From: Planctomycetota bacterium
Lineage (GTDB): Bacteria > Planctomycetota > Phycisphaerae > Phycisphaerales > Phycisphaeraceae
Assembly (NCBI GenBank): GCA_021413865.1
Contig: JAIOPN010000006.1
Coordinates: forward strand, 1-41,408
Reading direction: 5' to 3'
Length of the DNA: 41,408 bases
Shown here in pieces: positions 3,041-20,893 of the stretch. The notes below the pieces were generated by a model. That model did no database searches. It was not told the DNA's origin and saw nothing but the letters and a program-made list of their open reading frames with translations. The stretch's first letter is position 1; every line of letters begins with the position of its first letter. The position numbers were made by a program, and so were the translations under genes.

Positions 3041-3174
3041 ATGGGTTGCTTTGAAATTGGGTGCCACTGGTCGCGTCTTCGAGACCAGTATCTTCCGCGT
3101 GAAAACGCACTGGTCTGCCGAAGACGGCCGACCAGTGGCACCCAATAACATCCAAACTTTTCAGAGTCGCCCAC
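3041..3174. repeat. composite palindromic element, copy A (GGGTGCCACTGGTC family)
   Basis: GGGTGCCACTGGTC at 3059-3072 is mirrored by its exact complement at 3130-3143. Each half contains a second inner inverted CACTGGTC/GACCAGT pair, so the strand can fold into a branched hairpin. Outside the core lie matching ends: GGGTTGCTTTGAAATT on the left and the complement of AGTGGGCGACTCTGAAAAG on the right. The same layout, reversed, is found at 11929-12064. It sits in the gap between the thioredoxin gene and the end of the efflux operon and ends ten bases short of the outer-membrane-factor stop codon. Confidence 0.85.
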
Positions 3175-11928: not shown

Positions 11929-12064
11929 GTGGGTCGATTTGAAAAGTTTGGCTGAGGCATGGGTGCCACTGGTCGGCCGTCTTCGGCAGACCAGTGCGGT
12001 TTCGCACGCAAGCCACGGGTCTCGAAAACGCGACCAGTGGCACCCAATTTCAAAGCAGCCCACT
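11929..12064. repeat. composite palindromic element, copy B (GGGTGCCACTGGTC family)
   Basis: GGGTGCCACTGGTC at 11961-11974 is mirrored exactly at 12032-12045, with inner pairs as in copy A. The outer ends are GTGGGTCGATTTGAAAAG (from 11930) and the complement of AGTGGGCTGCTTTGAAATT (ending 12064). Relative to copy A the whole element is inverted: the end carrying GAAAAGTTTGG is on the left here and on the right there. It fills the gap between divergent perR and rrf2, ending about 30 bases before the rrf2 promoter. Confidence 0.85.
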
Positions 12065-12093: not shown

Positions 12094-12121
12094 TTGACAA
12101 CCGTAAAACACCTGATATATT
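12094..12121 (+). promoter_or_regulatory. sigma-70 type promoter of the Rrf2 gene
   Basis: A perfect TTGACA (12094-12099) is followed after 16 bases by TATATT (12116-12121). The predicted start lies about 30 bases before the ATG at 12159. CACCTG at 12109-12114 and CAGGTG at 12149-12154 are complementary and flank the expected start site, but their wide spacing makes an operator role uncertain. Confidence 0.7.
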
Positions 12122-12158: not shown

Positions 12159-12623
12159 ATGCGTCTCTCGATGAAATCCGACTACGCCCTGCGGGCGCTC
12201 TTCCACTTGGTGGACCACTACGGCCAGGCCCCGGTCTCGATCCGTGAGATCGCCGAGCGGAACGACATCCCCCGCCGGTTCCTCGAACAGATCATGATCG
12301 ACCTGCGGCATTGCGGCTGGGTCCGCAGCACCGCCGGCCGGGACGGCGGCTACGCTCTGGCGCAGAAGCCCGAGGAAATCACGATGGGGCAAGTGGTTAG
12401 GCATTTTGACGGCCAGCTCGCCCCGATCGCTTGCGTGTCGGCTTCGCACTACGAGCGTTGCTCCCAGGAGTCGCGTTGCCGGTTTCGCCGGGTGATGTTG
12501 GAGATCCGCAACTTCACCGCCCGGCTGATGGACAAGGCGACGCTCGCTTCGGTCGCCATCGGCCGCCCGGTGACCGACCGCGAGGTCTTCGCCGAGGACC
12601 TGCTCGAAGGGGCGGGGATCTGA
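12159..12623 (+). CDS. Rrf2-family regulator of sulfur uptake
   Basis: A 154-residue Rrf2 protein. The N-terminal winged helix begins MRLSMKSDYALRALFHL and continues through PVSIREIAERNDIPRRFLEQIM and the wing STAGRDGGYAL. A cysteine motif C-x8-C-x5-C follows (CVSASHYERCSQESRC), a spacing unlike IscR (C-x5-C-x5-C) but similar to Rrf2 proteins found beside sulfate transporters. The motif could hold an iron-sulfur cluster or sense a sulfur metabolite; which cannot be told. The gene lies 60 bases upstream of the Cys-codon leader and sulfate-binding protein gene on the same strand, so control of the sulfur locus is the likely role. Confidence 0.9.
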   Translation: MRLSMKSDYALRALFHLVDHYGQAPVSIREIAERNDIPRRFLEQIMIDLRHCGWVRSTAGRDGGYALAQKPEEITMGQVVRHFDGQLAPIACVSASHYERCSQESRCRFRRVMLEIRNFTARLMDKATLASVAIGRPVTDREVFAEDLLEGAGI

Positions 12624-12653
12624 CCGACTCTTTTTTTTGAAATAAACACCCAC

Positions 12654-12664
12654 CGACTTAGTCG
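12654..12664. promoter_or_regulatory. small palindrome upstream of the leader peptide, possible Rrf2 operator
   Basis: CGACT-T-AGTCG is an 11-base palindrome between the rrf2 stop and the leader peptide start, preceded by a run of eight T and TTGAAA. The position suits an operator for the sulfur locus, but no second copy was found to support it. Confidence 0.3.
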
Positions 12665-12683
12665 TGAATCATTGAGGATCGCC

Positions 12684-12785
12684 ATGAAGAAGTTTGACGC
12701 CCGACAACATGTCCGGCCGTTGCACCGTGTGGAACCCCGGCCCGGGGCTGCGGCGCGGATGCGTGAGCCGTGTTGTTGCTGTTGA
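12684..12785 (+). CDS. Cys-codon leader peptide of the sulfate transport genes
   Basis: A 33-residue reading frame starting at an ATG with GAGG seven bases upstream and ending REPCCCC before TGA. Four consecutive Cys codons (12771-12782, TGT TGT TGC TGT) directly before the stop are extremely unlikely by chance and place cysteine at the end of a leader upstream of a sulfate importer. Runs of codons for the regulated amino acid are the mark of attenuator leaders (trp, his), and Cys-run leader peptides are known before sulfur genes in mycobacteria. An internal ATG at 12759 would give the eight-residue MREPCCCC. The peptide itself probably has no function beyond ribosome stalling. No homologue is recognised. 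Confidence 0.7.
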   Translation: MKKFDARQHVRPLHRVEPRPGAAARMREPCCCC

Positions 12786-12892
12786 CCCGCCGCTGACGGC
12801 CGCACGCACCCGACCCACAACCTGAACTGTTTTGTCTTGCCAACCCCATCCACCGCCGTTGCGCGTGTGGCTGCACCCGCTCTCTCTTTTTT
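12757..12892 (+). promoter_or_regulatory. putative cysteine-responsive transcription attenuator
   Basis: Three alternative pairings can be drawn. Segment 1 (12757-12765, just before the Cys codons) pairs with segment 2 (12803-12811) with one mismatch. Segment 2 (12797-12807) pairs with segment 3 (12863-12873) over 11 bp including two G-U pairs. Segment 3 (12863-12869) pairs with segment 4 (12874-12880) as a seven-position stem with one mismatch, followed at once by TCTCTCTTTTTT (12881-12892), a terminator-like tail. A ribosome stalled on the Cys codons would leave segment 2 free to pair with 3 and prevent termination. A ribosome at the stop codon would reach segment 2 and allow the terminator. 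Folding was done by eye. Confidence 0.6.
12863..12892 (+). terminator. attenuator terminator before the sulfate-binding protein gene
   Basis: GCGTGTG and CACCCGC, which pair except for one T-C mismatch, flank a four-base loop (GGCT region). The U-rich tract TCTCTCTTTTTT follows directly. It lies 38 bases before the ATG of the binding-protein gene, the right place for a conditional terminator. The stem is short, so termination would be moderate. Confidence 0.5.
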
Positions 12893-12929
12893 GTCCGCTA
12901 CGTCCAACCAGAAACAAGGAGTCCAACTC

Positions 12930-13976
12930 ATGCTTTCTCGCCTCACCCATACCGTTGCCCGCACGCTGCTGGGCGTCTCTACCCTTTTCGTCGCCGGCGT
13001 CACGACGCTCGCCCCCGCGCAGCCCGTCCACGCCGACACCGAGCTGCTCAACGTGTCGTACGACCCGACGCGTGAGCTGTACCAGGAGTTCAACAAGGCG
13101 TTCGTCGCGCACTGGAAGGCCAGCGGCGGGGAATCCGTCGTCGTGCGTCAGTCGCACGGCGGCTCGGGCAAGCAGGCCCGCGCGGTGATCGATGGTCTTG
13201 AGGCGGACGTGGTCACGCTCGCCCTCGCCGCCGACATCGACGCCATCGCCAAGAACGCCCGGCTCCTGCCGGATGACTGGCAGTCGCGCCTGCCGGACAA
13301 CAGCTCGCCCTACACCTCGACCATCGTCTTTGTTGTCCGCAAGGGGAACCCCAAGGGCGTCAAGGATTGGAACGACCTGGTCAAGCCCGGCATCTCCATC
13401 ATCACGCCCAACCCCAAGACCTCGGGCGGTGCGCGGTGGAACTACCTGGCGGCGTGGGGCTACGCCCTGAGGAACAACGGCAACGACGAGGGCAAGGCCC
13501 GCGAGTTCGTCGCCGCCCTCTTCAAGAACGTCCCCGTGCTCGACTCGGGCGCCCGCGGCTCGACCACGACCTTCGCCCAGCGTGGGCTGGGCGACGTGCT
13601 CCTCTCCTGGGAGAACGAGGCGCACCTGATCCAGAAGGAGTTCGGCGCGGACAAGTTCGACATCGTCATCCCGTCGGTGAGCATCCTCGCCGAGCCGCCG
13701 GTGGCCATCGTGGACAAGGTCGTGGACAAGCGCGGCACGCGCAAGATCGCCGAGGGCTACCTCAAGTTCCTTTATTCGGAGCAGGGCCAGGAGATCGCCG
13801 CCAGGAACTTCTACCGCCCGCGGCTGGCGTCGGTGGCCACGAAGTACGTGGGCAACTTCCCCAGCATCCCGCTGTTCACGATCGACGAGGTCTTCGGCGG
13901 CTGGAAGAAGGCGCAGGCGACGCACTTCGCCGAGAAGGGCGTGTTCGATCAGATCTACCAGCCCAAGTCTAAGTGA
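12930..13976 (+). CDS. sbp: periplasmic sulfate-binding protein
   Basis: A 348-residue substrate-binding protein of the Sbp/CysP family. A signal peptide of about 35 residues ends PVHA before [16 protein letters not shown], the usual mature start. Family hallmarks are [57 protein letters not shown] and [21 protein letters not shown]. It would bind sulfate (or thiosulfate) in the periplasm and deliver it to CysTW. AAGGAG eight bases before the ATG at 12930 fixes the start; a longer frame begins upstream but lies over the attenuator. It is the first structural gene after the Cys-codon leader. Confidence 0.95.
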
Positions 13977-14024: not shown

Positions 14025-14157
14025 AGGTCGTGCCTCGGGAGAGGGCGGGAAGAACCGGGGGCGTGGGGCGCGTGTCGGGGTGCGTCCCGCGTTTCCCGGC
14101 CCGTCCGGTCGTGAACCATCAAAACAGACGCCGTGTTTTTTTGTCGGAGATAGTCCC

Positions 14158-14358
14158 ATGAAAAGCACACCGATCACGGATGCACAGCAGCAGAAGAACT
14201 GGCTGGACCTGGTCCGGCAGCACGTCGAGGGCCTGCGCTTCGGCACCGTGCAGATCGTGGTGCACGACTCGCGCGTGGTGCAGGTGGACCGCACCGAGCG
14301 CACCCGTTTTGAGCCCGCCGCCAGGAACGACGGCGGCGCAGCCACTGACCGCGACTGA
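14158..14358 (+). CDS. YezD-family small protein (DUF2292)
   Basis: A 66-residue protein whose core, NWLDLVRQHVEGLRFGTVQIVVHDSRVVQVDRTERTRF, is the complete DUF2292/YezD domain. These small proteins are widespread and often lie next to sulfate or sulfonate transport genes; their biochemical role is unknown. Here it sits between the binding protein and the porin, which supports a sulfur link. The ATG at 14158 was chosen because the domain starts soon after it and the upstream in-frame extension is a GC-rich stretch with no conserved sequence. Confidence 0.88.
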   Translation: MKSTPITDAQQQKNWLDLVRQHVEGLRFGTVQIVVHDSRVVQVDRTERTRFEPAARNDGGAATDRD

Positions 14359-14470
14359 GTTTCTCAATGTCCGTCAACCGGACCGCCGGCGACTTTCAAC
14401 CATGAACCCATTGATTGGCGCGATCCCACCGGAGCCCCGGAGGACGACGCCGGAAAGGACAAGGATTACC

Positions 14471-15937
14471 GTGAAGATTCACCGTTCCCTAGGATTGACC
14501 CTCGCCGCCTCGGCGGCGCTGGGCGCTCCGGCCTGGGTCTCCCGGACCCACGCGGAGGCGCCGGCGGACGTCGAGCGGAAGCTCGCGGCCCTCGAGGCCA
14601 CCGTGCAGGCCCAACAGTCGGAGCTGCGTCAGCTCCGCGAGAGCAAGAGCGATCAGTGGCTCGACGAACGCCGCGCCGAAGAGGTCAAGGCGCTCGTGAA
14701 AGAGGTCCTCGCCGATGCCGACACCCGCGCCAGCCTCCAGGGCGGCGGGGCGGTCGCGGGCTACAACCGCGGCTTCTTCATCGCCAGCGAGGACGGCAAC
14801 AACCTGCTGCGCATCGGTCTGACGCTGCAGGCCCGCTACATCTACAACACCCGGCGCGAGGCCCCCTCCAGCGGCGACCGGGACGAGGACGAGAGCGGCT
14901 TTTCCATCCGCCGCACGCAGCTCAACTTCCAGGGCAACGCGTTCGGCCCCGAGTGGACCTACCGCGTCCGCCTGGCCGCCGACGCCGACGGCGGCACGGT
15001 GAAGACCGACTGGACCTACATCGGCTACCAGCTCACCGACTCGGTCAACATCCAGGTCGGCCAGCTCAAGTCGCCCTTCCTGCGTGAGGAGCTCATCGGC
15101 GCCGACAAGCAGCTCACCGTCGAGCGTTCCTACTCGGCCGACTACTTCACCACCGACTTCACGCAGGGCGTGAACGTCAGCTACTGGAACGACCGGCTGC
15201 AGCTCTTGGGCTCGGTCAACGACGGGTCGTACGCCTGGCGTTCCGAGTTCAACACCGACCTGAGCGAGATCGCGCTCACCGGGCGGGCCGAGTACATCCT
15301 CTTCGGCGACGCCGACCTCTACCGCCAGAAGGGCTGGCGGCAGTTGGGCGACTTCACGAGCTGGAGCGACGACAAGTTCGCCGTCCTGCTCGGGGCCGCG
15401 GTCGATTACGAGTTCGGCGAGCACGGCAACGTCACCAACACGCCCGACATCTTCAAGTGGACGGCGGACGTGAGCGTCGAGGGCGGCGGGTGGAACTTCT
15501 TCGCCTCCGCGACGGGCCAGACGTTCTCCGGCACCGACGACAACCCCGTGGTCGCCAACGGCGTGACGGTGGGCAACCTGAGCAACCTGGAGGACGCCGA
15601 CCAGCTCAACTTCGTCGTGCAGGGCGGCCTCTTCGTGATCCCCGACAAGCTCGAGTTCTTCGGGCGCTACGAGTGGATCGACTTCGACGGTGCTTACTAC
15701 CGCAACAACCAGGGGGCCGTGCAGAGCGGCAGCCGCAACCTGGCGGACGACGAGAGCCAGGCCAGCCTGGTCACCGTCGGCGGCAACTACTACTTCAAGA
15801 AGAACAACGCCAAGCTCACGATCGACGTGGTCTATGCGCTCGACCCGCTCCCCGTCGCCAACGCCGGCCAGGGCCTCCTGGCCTCGCCCGGCGACGACCA
15901 GATCGCGGTCCGCTCGCAGGTCACGTTCGCCTTCTGA
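14471..15937 (+). CDS. OprP/OprO-type anion-selective porin
   Basis: A 488-residue porin of the phosphate-selective porin O/P family. GTG at 14471 (AAGG six bases upstream) opens a signal peptide ([22 protein letters not shown]...HAEA). A short trimerisation coiled coil follows ([24 protein letters not shown]), then the beta-barrel with alternating aromatic strands, e.g. [26 protein letters not shown], ending VRSQVTFAF with the C-terminal Phe of outer membrane proteins. In this locus the likely role is sulfate passage across the outer membrane, as inferred from its neighbours; the family is best known for phosphate and polyphosphate. An ATG at 14402 is a possible alternative start. Confidence 0.9.
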
Positions 15938-15962
15938 GCCGGTGAATCGTAACCATCCCTCC

Positions 15963-15996
15963 GGCCCGGGGGCCTTTGTCGGCCCCCGGGCCTTTT
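15963..15996 (+). terminator. intrinsic terminator after the porin gene
   Basis: GGCCCGGGGGCC (15963-15974) and GGCCCCCGGGCC (15981-15992) form a perfect 12-bp stem with loop TTTGTC, followed by TTTT. It separates the binding protein-YezD-porin group from the CysTWA group, implying either partial read-through or a second promoter for cysT. Confidence 0.85.
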
Positions 15997-16038
15997 CAGT
16001 CCGAGTAAACTCTTCCGCACTCCACGCGACAACGCGAG

Positions 16039-16992
16039 ATGAAGAAGATCAGATTCAAGCAACATTCCGTCATGCCCGGCTTCGGGCTCACGATGGGCTA
16101 CACGCTCTTCTACCTGAGCCTCATCGTGCTCATCCCGCTCAGCGCGCTGGTCTTCAAGACCGCCACGCTCACCTGGGCGCGCTTCTGGGAAGTCACCACC
16201 AGCGAGCGCGTCATGGCGTCGTACCGCCTGACCTTCGGCACGGCGCTGCTGGGCGCCGTCGTCAACGCCTTTTTCGGCTTCATCGTCGCCTGGTGCCTCG
16301 TGCGCTACCGCTTCCCAGGCCGGCGCATCATGGACGCGCTGGTGGACCTGCCCTTCGCCCTGCCCACCGCCGTCTCGGGCATCGCGCTGACCGCGATCTA
16401 CGCCCCCAACGGCTGGGTGGGGGAGCACCTCGAAAAGTGGAACGCCTCGGGCCTGCGCGGCTCGCTGGAGGCGTGGTACGCGCCGGTCGCCGGGTGGGTC
16501 AGGGGCGACAACACCGGCTGGTCGAGCTACGCCACCGGGCTGGTCCCCCCGGACCTGGAGATCAAGGCGGCCTACTCGCAGCTGGGCATCATCATCGCGA
16601 TGACGTTCATCGGGCTGCCCTTCGTGGTGCGCACGCTCCAGCCGGCGATCCAGGAGCTCGAGGCCGAGCTCGAGGACGCCGCCGCCAGCCTCGGCGCCGA
16701 CCGCTGGCAGACCTTCCGCCGGGTCATCATGCCGGTGCTGTTCCCGGCGCTGCTGACGGGTTTTGGCCTGTCGTTCGCGCGGGCGGTCGGGGAGTACGGG
16801 TCGATCGTCTTCATCTCCGGCAACATGCCCATGAAGACGGAGGTCACGCCGCTGCTCATCGTCGCCAAGCTCGAGGAGTACGACTACGCCGGCGCCACCG
16901 CGATCGCCGTGGTCATGCTCGTCGCCTCCTTCGTCATCCTGTTCGCGATCAACCTGATCCAGTGGTGGACCGGGGCGCACAAGCGCGCCTAG
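16039..16992 (+). CDS. cysT: sulfate ABC transporter permease CysT (CysU)
   Basis: A 317-residue inner membrane permease with six predicted membrane segments and the EAA loop [27 protein letters not shown]. Family signatures include [27 protein letters not shown] and [17 protein letters not shown]. It is about 40 residues longer than E. coli CysT (277). The extra sequence lies after APNGWVG (about residues 135-175), in the extracytoplasmic loop before [15 protein letters not shown]. It forms the channel with CysW. Its start follows a terminator by about 40 bases. CysW starts 15 bases after its stop. Confidence 0.95.
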
Positions 16993-17007
16993 AGAAGAGA
17001 ACGCCCC

Positions 17008-17907
17008 ATGGCCCAAGCCGTCCCACGCCGCCGCGCGACCACGCCCGGGGGCGCGCGCGCGCGGAACACGCCGGCGTGGGTGCGCTGGCCGCTCATCGGC
17101 GTCTCCTTCGGCTTCGTCGGGCTGTTCCTCGTGATGCCCATGGCCGCCGTCTTCGCCGAGGCCTTCCGCAAGGGGGTGGGCGTCTATATGGACAGCCTGC
17201 GCGACCCCGACGCGCTCTCGGCGATCTGGCTCACCGTCCTCACCGCCGCGATCACGCTCCCGCTGAACATCGTCTTCGGCCTGTCCTCGGCGTGGCTCAT
17301 CGCCAGGTTCCGCTTCGCCGGCCGGGGCCTGCTCATCACCCTCATCGACCTGCCCTTCGCCGTCTCCCCCGTCATCTCCGGCCTCATCTTCGTTCTCATG
17401 TTCGGGCTCCAAGGCTGGATCGGCCCCTGGCTCAAGGGGCACGACATCCAGATCATCTTCGCCGTTCCCGGCGTCATCCTCGCCACGCTCTTCGTCACCT
17501 TCCCCTTCGTCGCGCGCGAGGTGCTCTCGCTCATGCAGGAGCAGGGCGACGACCAGGAACAGGCGGCGCTCATGCTCGGGGCCAGCGGCTGGAAGACGTT
17601 CTGGCGCGTCACGCTCCCCAACGTGAAATGGGCGGTGCTCTACGGCGTGATCCTCTGCAACGCCCGCGCCATGGGCGAGTTCGGGGCCGTCTCCGTCGTC
17701 TCCGGCCACGTGCGAGGCCGGACCAACACCATGCCGCTCCAGGTCGAGATCCTTTACAACGAATACAACTTCGTCGCGGCGTTCGCCGTGGCGTCGCTGC
17801 TCACGCTGCTGGCGCTGGTGACGCTGGTCGTCAAGGGCGTGCTGGAGTGGCGGCTGGCGGGCGAGGCCCAGGACGCGGAGGAATCAACGAAGGGGATCAC
17901 GGCATGA
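17008..17907 (+). CDS. cysW: sulfate ABC transporter permease CysW
   Basis: A 299-residue permease, the CysT partner, with the expected length. The N-terminal 28 residues are basic and probably cytosolic. Motifs include [20 protein letters not shown], the EAA loop [21 protein letters not shown] and [20 protein letters not shown]. The last residues overlap the CysA start codon as ATGA, so translation is coupled. Confidence 0.96.
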
Positions 17908-18983
17908 GCATCGAGATTTCTCGCATAAGCAAGACATTCGGCAAGTTCACCGCGCTGCGCGACGTGAGCCTGCTGGTGCCCGACGGCGAACTGGTGGCGC
18001 TGCTGGGGCCCTCGGGCTCGGGCAAGACGACGCTGCTGCGGATCATCTCCGGCCTGGAGCAGGCCGACGAGGGCAGCGGCGCGATCAAGTTCCACGGCAA
18101 CGACGTGGGCGGCAGCGCCGTGGGCGAGCGCGGCGTGGGCTTCGTCTTCCAGCACTACGCGCTCTTCAAGCACATGACGGTGTTCGAGAACATCGCCTTC
18201 GGCCTGCGGGTGCGGCCGCGCGCCACCCGGCCGACCAACGCGAAGATCGCCGACCGCGTCCGTGAGCTGCTCCGGCTGATCCAGCTCGAAGGTTTGGAGA
18301 AACGCTACCCGACGCAGCTCTCGGGCGGCCAGCGGCAGCGCATCGCGCTGGCGCGGGCGCTGGCGGTCGAGCCGCGCGTCCTCCTCCTCGACGAGCCCTT
18401 CGGCGCGCTGGACGCGCAGGTGCGGCAGGAGCTGCGCCGCTGGCTCCGCCGGCTGCACGACGAGATCCACGTCACCAGTGTCTTCGTCACCCACGACCAG
18501 GAGGAGGCGCTGGAGGTGGCGGACCGCATCGTGGTGATGAACCAGGGCCGCATCGAGCAGCAGGGCACGCCCGACGAGGTGTTCCACCAGCCCGCCAACG
18601 CCTTCGTCATGAACTTCCTGGGGCAGGTCAACCTGTTCCACGGCCGGGTCGAGGAGGGCAAGGCGGACTTCGGCAACGTGGCGCTGAGCCCCGCGGCCAA
18701 CACGGGCGGGACGGGCGGGCAGAAGGCGAGCCTCTTCGTCCGGCCGCACGACCTGGACATCCGCAAGACGCCCGAGGAGGGCAAGCCCGCGATGCCGGCG
18801 ACGGTGCGGCGCGTGCAGTCCGCCGGCCCGGTGGTGCGCGTCGAGCTGGAAGACGCGCTGGGCCGGTCGATCCAGGTCCACCTGCCGCACGAACGCCACC
18901 GCCTGCTCAAGCCCGTGCCCGGCGAAGGCGTGTTCCTGGTCGTCAAGGACGCGCGGATGTTCGTGGACGATTTCTCGATCTGA
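17904..18983 (+). CDS. cysA: sulfate ABC transporter ATP-binding protein CysA
   Basis: A 359-residue ABC ATPase. It starts [15 protein letters not shown] and shows Walker A GPSGSGKT (35-42), Q-loop [16 protein letters not shown], signature LSGGQRQR, Walker [17 protein letters not shown] and H-loop [15 protein letters not shown]. The C-terminal part after about residue 240 is the TOBE-type regulatory domain of CysA (FVRPHDLDI). It energises sulfate or thiosulfate import through CysT/CysW. The ATG at 17904 overlaps the cysW stop. Confidence 0.97.
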
Positions 18984-20808: not shown

Positions 20809-20893
20809 GGGTGCCACTGGTCGGCTTCTTAGCAGACCAGTGCTCTTGGGCCCTGGAAAGACACTGGTCTCGAAGACGCGACCAGTGGCACCC
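20809..20893. repeat. palindromic element, copy C (GGGTGCCACTGGTC family)
   Basis: GGGTGCCACTGGTC at 20809-20822 is mirrored exactly at 20880-20893, with the inner AGACCAGTG/CACTGGTCT pairs also present. Unlike copies A and B, the outer TTTGAAA ends are not found. It lies between the fucosidase start and the next gene upstream on the same strand. Confidence 0.85.

Follow-up and report, generated by a model that had tools for sequence, protein, structure and literature searches.

In a 41,408-nucleotide stretch of DNA from a Planctomycetota bacterium (the window), a short ORF whose product ends in four successive Cys residues lies between the gene of a CymR-like Rrf2-family regulator and sbp, the gene of the substrate-binding protein of a sulfate importer. 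Because the Cys run is rare and is placed after the CymR-like Rrf2 gene and before the sulfate importer operon, this ORF (12684-12785) is likely to be a cysteine-sensing leader that controls, in cis, the genes of the sulfate importer. In the output that we favour, premature termination of the Rho type would take place in the C-rich spacer between the leader and sbp.

A four-Cys leader ORF precedes a sulfate importer operon

On the plus strand of the window, the locus is arranged in the order promoter, Rrf2 gene, leader, sbp, Porin_O_P protein gene, cysT, cysW and cysA. Ahead of the Rrf2 gene, a pattern scan found a sigma-70-like promoter with the sequence TTGACA-N16-TATATT (12094..12121; 11 of 12 matches), which is probably the promoter of the operon, and several orthologous Rrf2 genes were seen by eye to have a similar promoter layout. 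The Rrf2-family gene (12159..12623) matched PF02082 (E 9e-37) and the NCBIfam model rrf2_super above cut-off, and scored 81.5 bits against the NCBIfam CymR model, under that model's cut-off of 195. Downstream of the leader, sbp encodes a sulfate ABC transporter substrate-binding protein (12930..13976; NF008022, E 5e-162) and is followed by genes for a Porin_O_P-like porin (14180..15937; PF07396, E 8.5e-12), the sulfate permeases CysT (16039..16992; TIGR02139) and CysW (17008..17907; TIGR02140) and the ATPase CysA (17908..18983). CysA, whose start is not fixed, is the C-terminal part of an open frame of 15690-18983, in which ABC_tran, CysA_C_terminal and TOBE_3 were matched.

The leader ORF (12684..12785) runs from its ATG at 12684 to a TGA, comprises 33 codons and a stop, and encodes MKKFDARQHVRPLHRVEPRPGAAARMREPCCCC. 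As an earlier reading of the sequence alone (the sequence-only reading) had claimed, the 33 residues end with four successive Cys codons, TGT TGT TGC TGT (12771..12782), directly followed by the stop; a Shine-Dalgarno sequence, GAGGA, was also found at 12674..12678. A start signal, a CCCC run and a downstream gene of the same pathway, that of the sulfate importer, are all present, as expected of an amino-acid-run leader. The leader stop is separated from the sbp start by 144 nt.

That four Cys codons in a row are very improbable by chance, as had been supposed, was borne out by 100,000 dinucleotide shuffles of 12624-12929, in which an ATG-initiated ORF with CCCC arose 25 times and one with CCCC-stop once, although the TTG/TGT repeat makes these shuffles understate chance somewhat. 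The looser pattern of at least 3 Cys within 6 residues of an ATG-initiated ORF arose in 3,450 of the shuffles (3.5%). In the 4.37-Mb genome, TGYx4-TRA occurs once, and so does a backward control pattern. When genes were predicted by a simple ORF rule made for this analysis, the leader's was the only one of the 38 TGYx4 sites of the genome to fall outside predicted genes; the other 37 lie inside them and were rejected as further Cys leaders. Among CCCC-stop sites in genomes of the class, taken one per genome (n = 30), two are outside genes, namely the leader's and another whose neighbours are a tRNA and an EF-Tu-like gene; the latter lacks an ATG start and is plainly unrelated. In the window's own genome, loci L137 and L158 were rejected as leaders, their Cys runs being out of frame within longer open frames.

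The Cys run also reads as a TTG/TGT-type trinucleotide repeat. Three of the four leader Cys codons are TGT, whereas 13 CDS of the window use TGC and TGT at 49 to 3, and GC3 is 0.67 in the leader compared with 0.86. This preference for TGT may mean that slow codons serve regulation, or it may simply come from the repeat. The leader peptide matched no family in NCBIfam or Pfam. In searches with the Rfam 15 covariance models, locus L001, which contains the leader region of the window, had no match at E <= 1, and L002 had one sub-threshold snoRNA match.

Several other features of the locus were observed. The gap between the porin gene and cysT contains a very strong, terminator-like hairpin (15963-15992) of 12 G-C pairs followed by TTTTCAGTCC, which may partly cut the permease genes off from the sbp transcript. 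Of the four runs of at least six T on the plus strand of the window, three lie in gaps of the operon (12631-12638, 12887-12892 and 14136-14142), approximately 38-46 nt 5' of start codons, and may belong to promoters or start regions and not be terminators. Furthermore, an 85-bp inverted-repeat element bounded by GGGTGCCACTGGTC occurs at 3059-3143, 11961-12045 and 20809-20893, one copy being directly before the Rrf2 promoter. Across the genome, its end motif was matched 63 times at one mismatch or fewer, against 10 for a backward control, mostly as facing pairs about 85 bp long.

The upstream Rrf2 regulator is associated with sulfur genes

Seventeen other copies of the Rrf2 gene were compared with that of the window. 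Thirteen of them are directly before cysteine-synthase-, sbp- or cystathionine-synthase-like genes (names assigned by eye), one is before a porin-like gene near sbp, and three have no clear neighbour. Upstream of the 18 Rrf2 genes, the best match to ACGAC-N7-GTCGT had at most one mismatch in 6, two in 4, three in 7 and four in 1. The palindrome was noted upstream of Rrf2 in L055, L179, L064, L018, L236 and L017, mostly beside a -10-like box. It is probably an autoregulatory operator across Planctomycetota. The operator in the window is degenerate: the site at the Rrf2 promoter has 3 mismatches, a score that shuffles also reach, and the one before the leader has 2. The latter match belongs to a weak candidate for an internal promoter/operator (12620..12665) made up of CTGACC-N17-TAAACA, assigned by eye, and then CCCAC-N7-GTCGT; its 2 mismatches were equalled by a fraction of 0.07 of 300 shuffles, and the promoter scan called no promoter there.

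Cys-rich leader candidates are found before sbp in two relatives

Including the window's own genome, sbp is present in 9 of 51 genomes of the family and 58 of 397 of the class. DNA upstream of sbp was examined in 59 genomes, comprising 53 of these 58 and six more family members; G102, G159, G165, G180 and G195 were left out, and G182 gave 36 nt only. Cys-rich leader candidates were found before sbp in three of the 59, namely the genome of the window (G000), G017 and G065. A first filter for Cys-rich ORFs was too strict, missing the G065 leader as well as that of a Chlorobiaceae locus (L077, see below), and a looser recheck found the one in G065. The suggested search for Cys-run frames and covarying stems before sbp in related planctomycetes gave Cys-rich candidates in G017 and G065, which with that of the window make three of 59 genomes; the structures of G017 are at chance, G065 has no U-tract, and the leaders are too divergent for covariation to be assessed.

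The candidate in G017, a member of the same family, is MIRFTSTSPVHPFACRACMCSPTDARLSA; it contains CRACMC and lies in the Rrf2-sbp gap, three bases after the Rrf2 gene. The candidate in G065 (locus L175), from another family, is MRLQAMCCSTRMSAEMPMGCC followed by a stop. On one side it is flanked by a divergent gene that looks GroES-like by eye, and on the other by sbp, whose aligned start is about 235-298 nt further on. The candidate is 7 nt downstream of a promoter-like TTGACG-N16-TACACT (by eye) and is perhaps near-leaderless. Between this leader and sbp no T run of at least 5 was seen by eye, and the spacer is C-rich. In 20,000 shuffles of the G065 region, an ATG-initiated ORF with at least 4 Cys arose in 306, and one also ending in CC in 4. 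The G017 and G065 leaders are unlike in sequence, and by eye the peptides of the three candidates share nothing beyond Cys.

Other ORFs before sbp were rejected. The ORF in G006 overlaps the sbp start (by eye), that in G002 has CMCIC inside a 60-residue ORF without a Shine-Dalgarno sequence, the CCC in G417 is in another frame of an Rrf2-like gene, and that in G029 is on the other strand; those in G297 and G343, with TTG starts only, were not accepted either, nor were additional ORFs carrying one CC pair or two. In the gaps between Rrf2 and sulfur genes, Cys ORFs occur just in G000 and G017, besides a 7-residue ORF at the sbp start (L064) and a distant one (L234). A Cys-rich ORF of Oxalobacteraceae was also rejected, as it is not before a sulfur gene. 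A 22-residue ORF, MSLFADRQRFVFxCCNKYCPNC, is conserved in Janthinobacterium and relatives approximately 2.7 kb upstream of sbp (L076, L083, L084, L088 at 1241-1306, L090 and L099-L101, with a variant in L082), where it precedes a D-Ala-D-Ala endopeptidase-like gene (by eye; L076, L084 and L088).

The predicted RNA structures do not form a ribosome-dependent switch at equilibrium

The sequence-only reading had drawn three competing pairings between the leader and sbp and had explained them as the classical trp/his logic applied to cysteine. All three pairings were found, the last followed by UCUCUCUUUUUU. Segment 1 (12757..12765) pairs with 12803-12811 at 8 of 9 positions (1:2; -10.6 kcal/mol as a duplex), segment 2 (12797..12807) forms an 11-bp helix with 12863-12873, in which all 11 positions pair, including two G-U (2:3; -20.1 kcal/mol as a duplex), and 12863-12869 pairs with 12874-12880 at 6 of 7 positions with an inner U-C mismatch (3:4; -5.4 kcal/mol). 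The 2:3 helix is stable and above chance, since an ungapped helix of at least 11 bp was found in 16 of 1000 shuffles of the post-stop DNA and its duplex score was reached in 0 of 300. The 1:2 helix is not above chance in length, being equalled in 375 of 500 shuffles, and by best duplex energy it was equalled in 22 of 300. Segment 3, a weak hairpin (12863-12880) with its tract (12863..12892), has an energy of -6.1 to -6.8 kcal/mol; as a terminator hairpin of -6.8 kcal/mol it is not above chance, with 267 of 1000 shuffles as good and a fraction of 0.33 of 300 in a second test. Moreover, the terminator scan called none on the plus strand at the leader-sbp region, and the U-tract after 3:4 is broken by a C. 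The 2:3 helix, as the antiterminator, uses 12863-12873 and overlaps the left arm of the terminator, making the two mutually exclusive. The region from leader to gene folds no better than its shuffles (z +1.5), its post-stop part gave z -1.7 (7 of 200), and pairing of the sbp Shine-Dalgarno sequence with the U-tract belongs to a weak fold (-6.7 for 70 nt). In G017 the terminator, the antiterminator and 1:2 are all at chance (fractions of 0.30, 0.15 and 0.12 of 300 shuffles); this genome repeats the drawn scheme by eye yet scores at chance, indicating that GC-rich DNA yields such schemes easily.

Constrained equilibrium folding was carried out on a transcript ending at 12886, with the positions occupied by the ribosome masked. 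The ribosome footprint extends 15 nt on each side of the P site. A footprint reaching 12 nt past the stop codon, which is 12797 here, is given in the accessible text of PMC4833913. The probability of 2:3 was 0.99 both in the absence of a ribosome and with one on the stop codon. It was 0.90 when the whole RNA up to 12797 was masked, and stalls at Cys codon 1, 2 or 4 gave 0.94-1.00. A stall at the third Cys codon gave 0.56 for 2:3 and 0.31 for 3:4, and 1.00 and 0.00, respectively, when all upstream RNA was masked too. When masking was extended to 12801 or beyond, 2:3 was lost (0.02 or less) and 3:4 was still at most 0.04; indeed, 3:4 exceeded 0.04 solely for the stall at the third Cys codon, which is the wrong condition. 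At equilibrium 2:3 thus dominates in nearly every ribosome state, also when translation has reached the stop codon, and the off-state of the classical model does not arise. With 1:2 forced, 3:4 formed in the best structure at -63.4, compared with -67.8 when folded freely (4.4 kcal/mol above the optimum), and a kinetic route in which 1:2 forms first may exist. Thus, folding with and without ribosome masking, which had been suggested as a check, gave 2:3 both ways and no switch; the trp/his logic fails on this point, and a terminator at chance level and a G065 region without a U-tract also leave it unsupported.

The spacer between the leader and sbp is C-rich

A C-rich, G-poor stretch follows the leader and is a possible Rho-loading region (12803..12862); in 12808-12862, 24 of 55 bases are C and 8 are G. 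As a measure of C over G we took the highest excess among all 60-nt stretches within the 260 nt preceding sbp, a test conceived after two of the three leader genomes had been seen. By this measure G017, G065 and G000 rank first to third of 58 genomes, with 27, 19 and 19 (next 18, 15 and 15), and they stay the top three when the comparison is restricted to the 40 genomes that have a predicted noncoding gap (next 15). Of the examined DNA of G017, G065 and G000, respectively, 0.02%, 0.07% and 0.76% consists of 60-nt stretches that are equally C-rich. On the plus strand of the window, a C-G excess of 19 is also reached in 4 of 15 other long spacers. A rho gene is present in the genome. Sequence composition of this kind is a hint, and no proof, that the spacer is acted on by Rho.

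Chlorobiales have Cys-rich leaders with strong terminators before sbp

As a positive control we examined the Chlorobiales (green sulfur bacteria), in which a Chlorobiaceae locus (L077) has the leader MSSQTETSTLCCSSCCCQ... before sbp. In its order sbp was found in 44 of 81 genomes, and the set consisted of the 30 best-scoring of 52 places, including that of L077, of which 28 had enough upstream DNA. In 26 of these 28 loci, all but L249 and L254, sbp is preceded by a Cys-rich ORF (3 or more Cys within 7 residues), the first possible start of which is 296-380 nt upstream of the LLNVSYDP motif of Sbp; leader and terminator region together are about 140-380 nt before this motif. A hairpin before a U run, of -9.1 to -18.0 kcal/mol, is present in all 28 loci, and in 24 of the 28 at most 1 of 60 shuffles was as good. 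In the Chlorobiales loci (L241-L270 and L077) the terminator has the form GGCCGGUUCCUGACA..CAG.GAACCGGC with a long U run after it.

Alignments of 26 sequences, which leave out L251 and L270 (near-copies of L248 and L269) and the short L263 and L267, showed that 96.2% of cells pair in the stem. Four pairs change on both sides, which 1 of 500 shuffles reached, and slid versions of the stem had at most 2; the signal from further pair types was weaker (43 of 500). A Chlorobiales antiterminator was not established, since only 4 of 26 reached p < 0.05 against mononucleotide shuffles and 2 of 26 gave no duplex owing to the choice of segments. Rfam had no match for any of the five loci searched (L077 and four further Chlorobiales loci), and a covariance model of the terminator region matched, of 39 sources, only L077 and not the window. 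Taken from its sequence features, the Chlorobiales element looks like a cysteine attenuator. Because these attenuators pass the hairpin test, a terminator-type Cys attenuator before sbp is detectable by our approach, and the window is unlike one.

Comparison with known cysteine leaders

That Cys-run leaders are known in mycobacteria, as the sequence-only reading stated, agrees with the accessible text of PMC1262725 and with Canestrari et al. 2020 as cited elsewhere. The polycysteine leaderless sORFs of mycobacteria, which citations of Canestrari et al. 2020 describe as cysteine-responsive and as acting by translational attenuation, resemble the leader of the window in being short Cys-run ORFs upstream of sulfur genes, and differ, as far as those citations go, in that the window leader has a Shine-Dalgarno sequence and 144 nt to its gene; the G065 candidate, which may be near-leaderless too, is reminiscent of them. 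The cys leaders of Mycobacterium, Propionibacterium and Bifidobacterium, for which the accessible text of PMC1262725 suggests Rho, share with the window a Cys run near the stop and no obvious terminator, whereas the window belongs to another phylum and its leader precedes other genes than the cys operon and cbs. In Rhodobacterales, uORFC-8-2 before cysS is likewise a uORF with tandem Cys codons; ribosome-mediated attenuation has been proposed for it, with a U run that fits an intrinsic terminator, according to the part of PMC8632094 available. Unlike uORFC-8-2, the leader of the window is followed by a terminator that is not above chance, and its target is a sulfate importer. The Chlorobiales attenuator is similar to the window in its Cys-rich leader upstream of sbp and differs in its strong conserved terminator and long U run.

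The best-ranked matches in the open-licence PMC literature included no account of a cysteine leader from either Planctomycetota or Chlorobiota. The earlier statement that no terminator/antiterminator attenuator for cysteine was known in planctomycetes stands for this literature, but one is on record elsewhere, for cysS of Rhodobacterales (available part of PMC8632094). The window leader is a further Cys-run leader, of a known kind, in a phylum for which we found none described.

Interpretation

In the mechanism we propose, a translating ribosome would pause on the four Cys codons when charged Cys-tRNA is short, and more transcript would then either run on into sbp and the downstream genes or be used to translate them. 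The leader would thereby add charging-based control to the CymR-like Rrf2 repressor encoded directly upstream. Given the 144 nt between leader and sbp, attenuation fits better than reinitiation, with reference to the accessible text of PMC4833913. The recurrence of Cys leaders before sbp in Chlorobiales supports a sensor. Counted against it are the lack of a convincing terminator, the lack of a ribosome-dependent switch at equilibrium, the finding of candidates in three of 59 class genomes, and the rare TGT codons and low GC3, as a simple repeat would give. The last point also speaks for an alternative, that a TTG/TGT simple repeat fell in frame by chance in a functionless ORF bearing a Shine-Dalgarno sequence. 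We regard this as an appreciable though minority possibility: TGT is favoured in a TGC-using genome, 38 TGYx4 sites exist there, and one other non-genic CCCC-stop among the 30 class sites is plainly unrelated, whereas the ATG with its Shine-Dalgarno sequence, the place ahead of a sulfate operon, the uniqueness outside genes and the candidates in the corresponding position of G017 and G065 argue for function. It is very improbable that the ORF encodes a small Cys-rich peptide working by itself in metal or thiol binding; the CCCC tail could bind metal, but neither the database searches nor a comparison by eye of the three candidate peptides, which have only Cys in common, points to a conserved product.

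The chances assigned to particular outputs are shares of the likelihood given to the sensor itself. A classical attenuator as drawn would have 1:2 permitting 3:4, and a Cys stall masking segment 1, leading to 2:3 and readthrough. In its favour, the three helices are all present and overlap in the order that such a switch requires, a stall on the Cys codons would cover segment 1, and forcing 1:2 brings 3:4 into the best structure. Nevertheless, its terminator is matched by 267 of 1000 shuffles, absent from the scan and followed by an interrupted U-tract, 2:3 prevails both without a ribosome and with one at the stop, 3:4 stays at or below 0.04 except for the third-Cys stall, G065 has no U-tract, and Chlorobiales attenuators pass the same hairpin test in 24 of 28 loci, making this output unlikely. 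Rho-dependent attenuation, about twice as credible to us and still tentative, would leave the C-rich stretch after the stop free for Rho, while during a stall the ribosome and 2:3 would limit Rho. The top ranks of the three leader genomes for C over G before sbp, the scarcity of equally C-rich stretches, the rho gene and the same idea put forward for mycobacterial cys leaders without terminators (accessible text of PMC1262725) are consistent with it. The post hoc nature of the C-richness test, the four of 15 other window spacers that are as C-rich, and the independence of 2:3 from the ribosome at equilibrium weigh against it. In the favoured Rho-type output, limitation of Rho by the 2:3 helix or the ribosome would work via co-transcriptional kinetics not visible in equilibrium folding.

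We put forward, as a tentative idea, that cysteine-charging sensors before sbp arose separately in Planctomycetota and Chlorobiota, and that the planctomycete form is terminator-less, uses Rho on a C-rich spacer, and in the window is placed within the operon between the gene of an autoregulated CymR-like repressor and the target transporter. If the leader is a cysteine sensor, sulfate uptake in a planctomycete would be tuned by both a repressor and Cys-tRNA charging. The Chlorobiales comparison provides a conserved setting for direct tests of how cysteine attenuates sulfate import.
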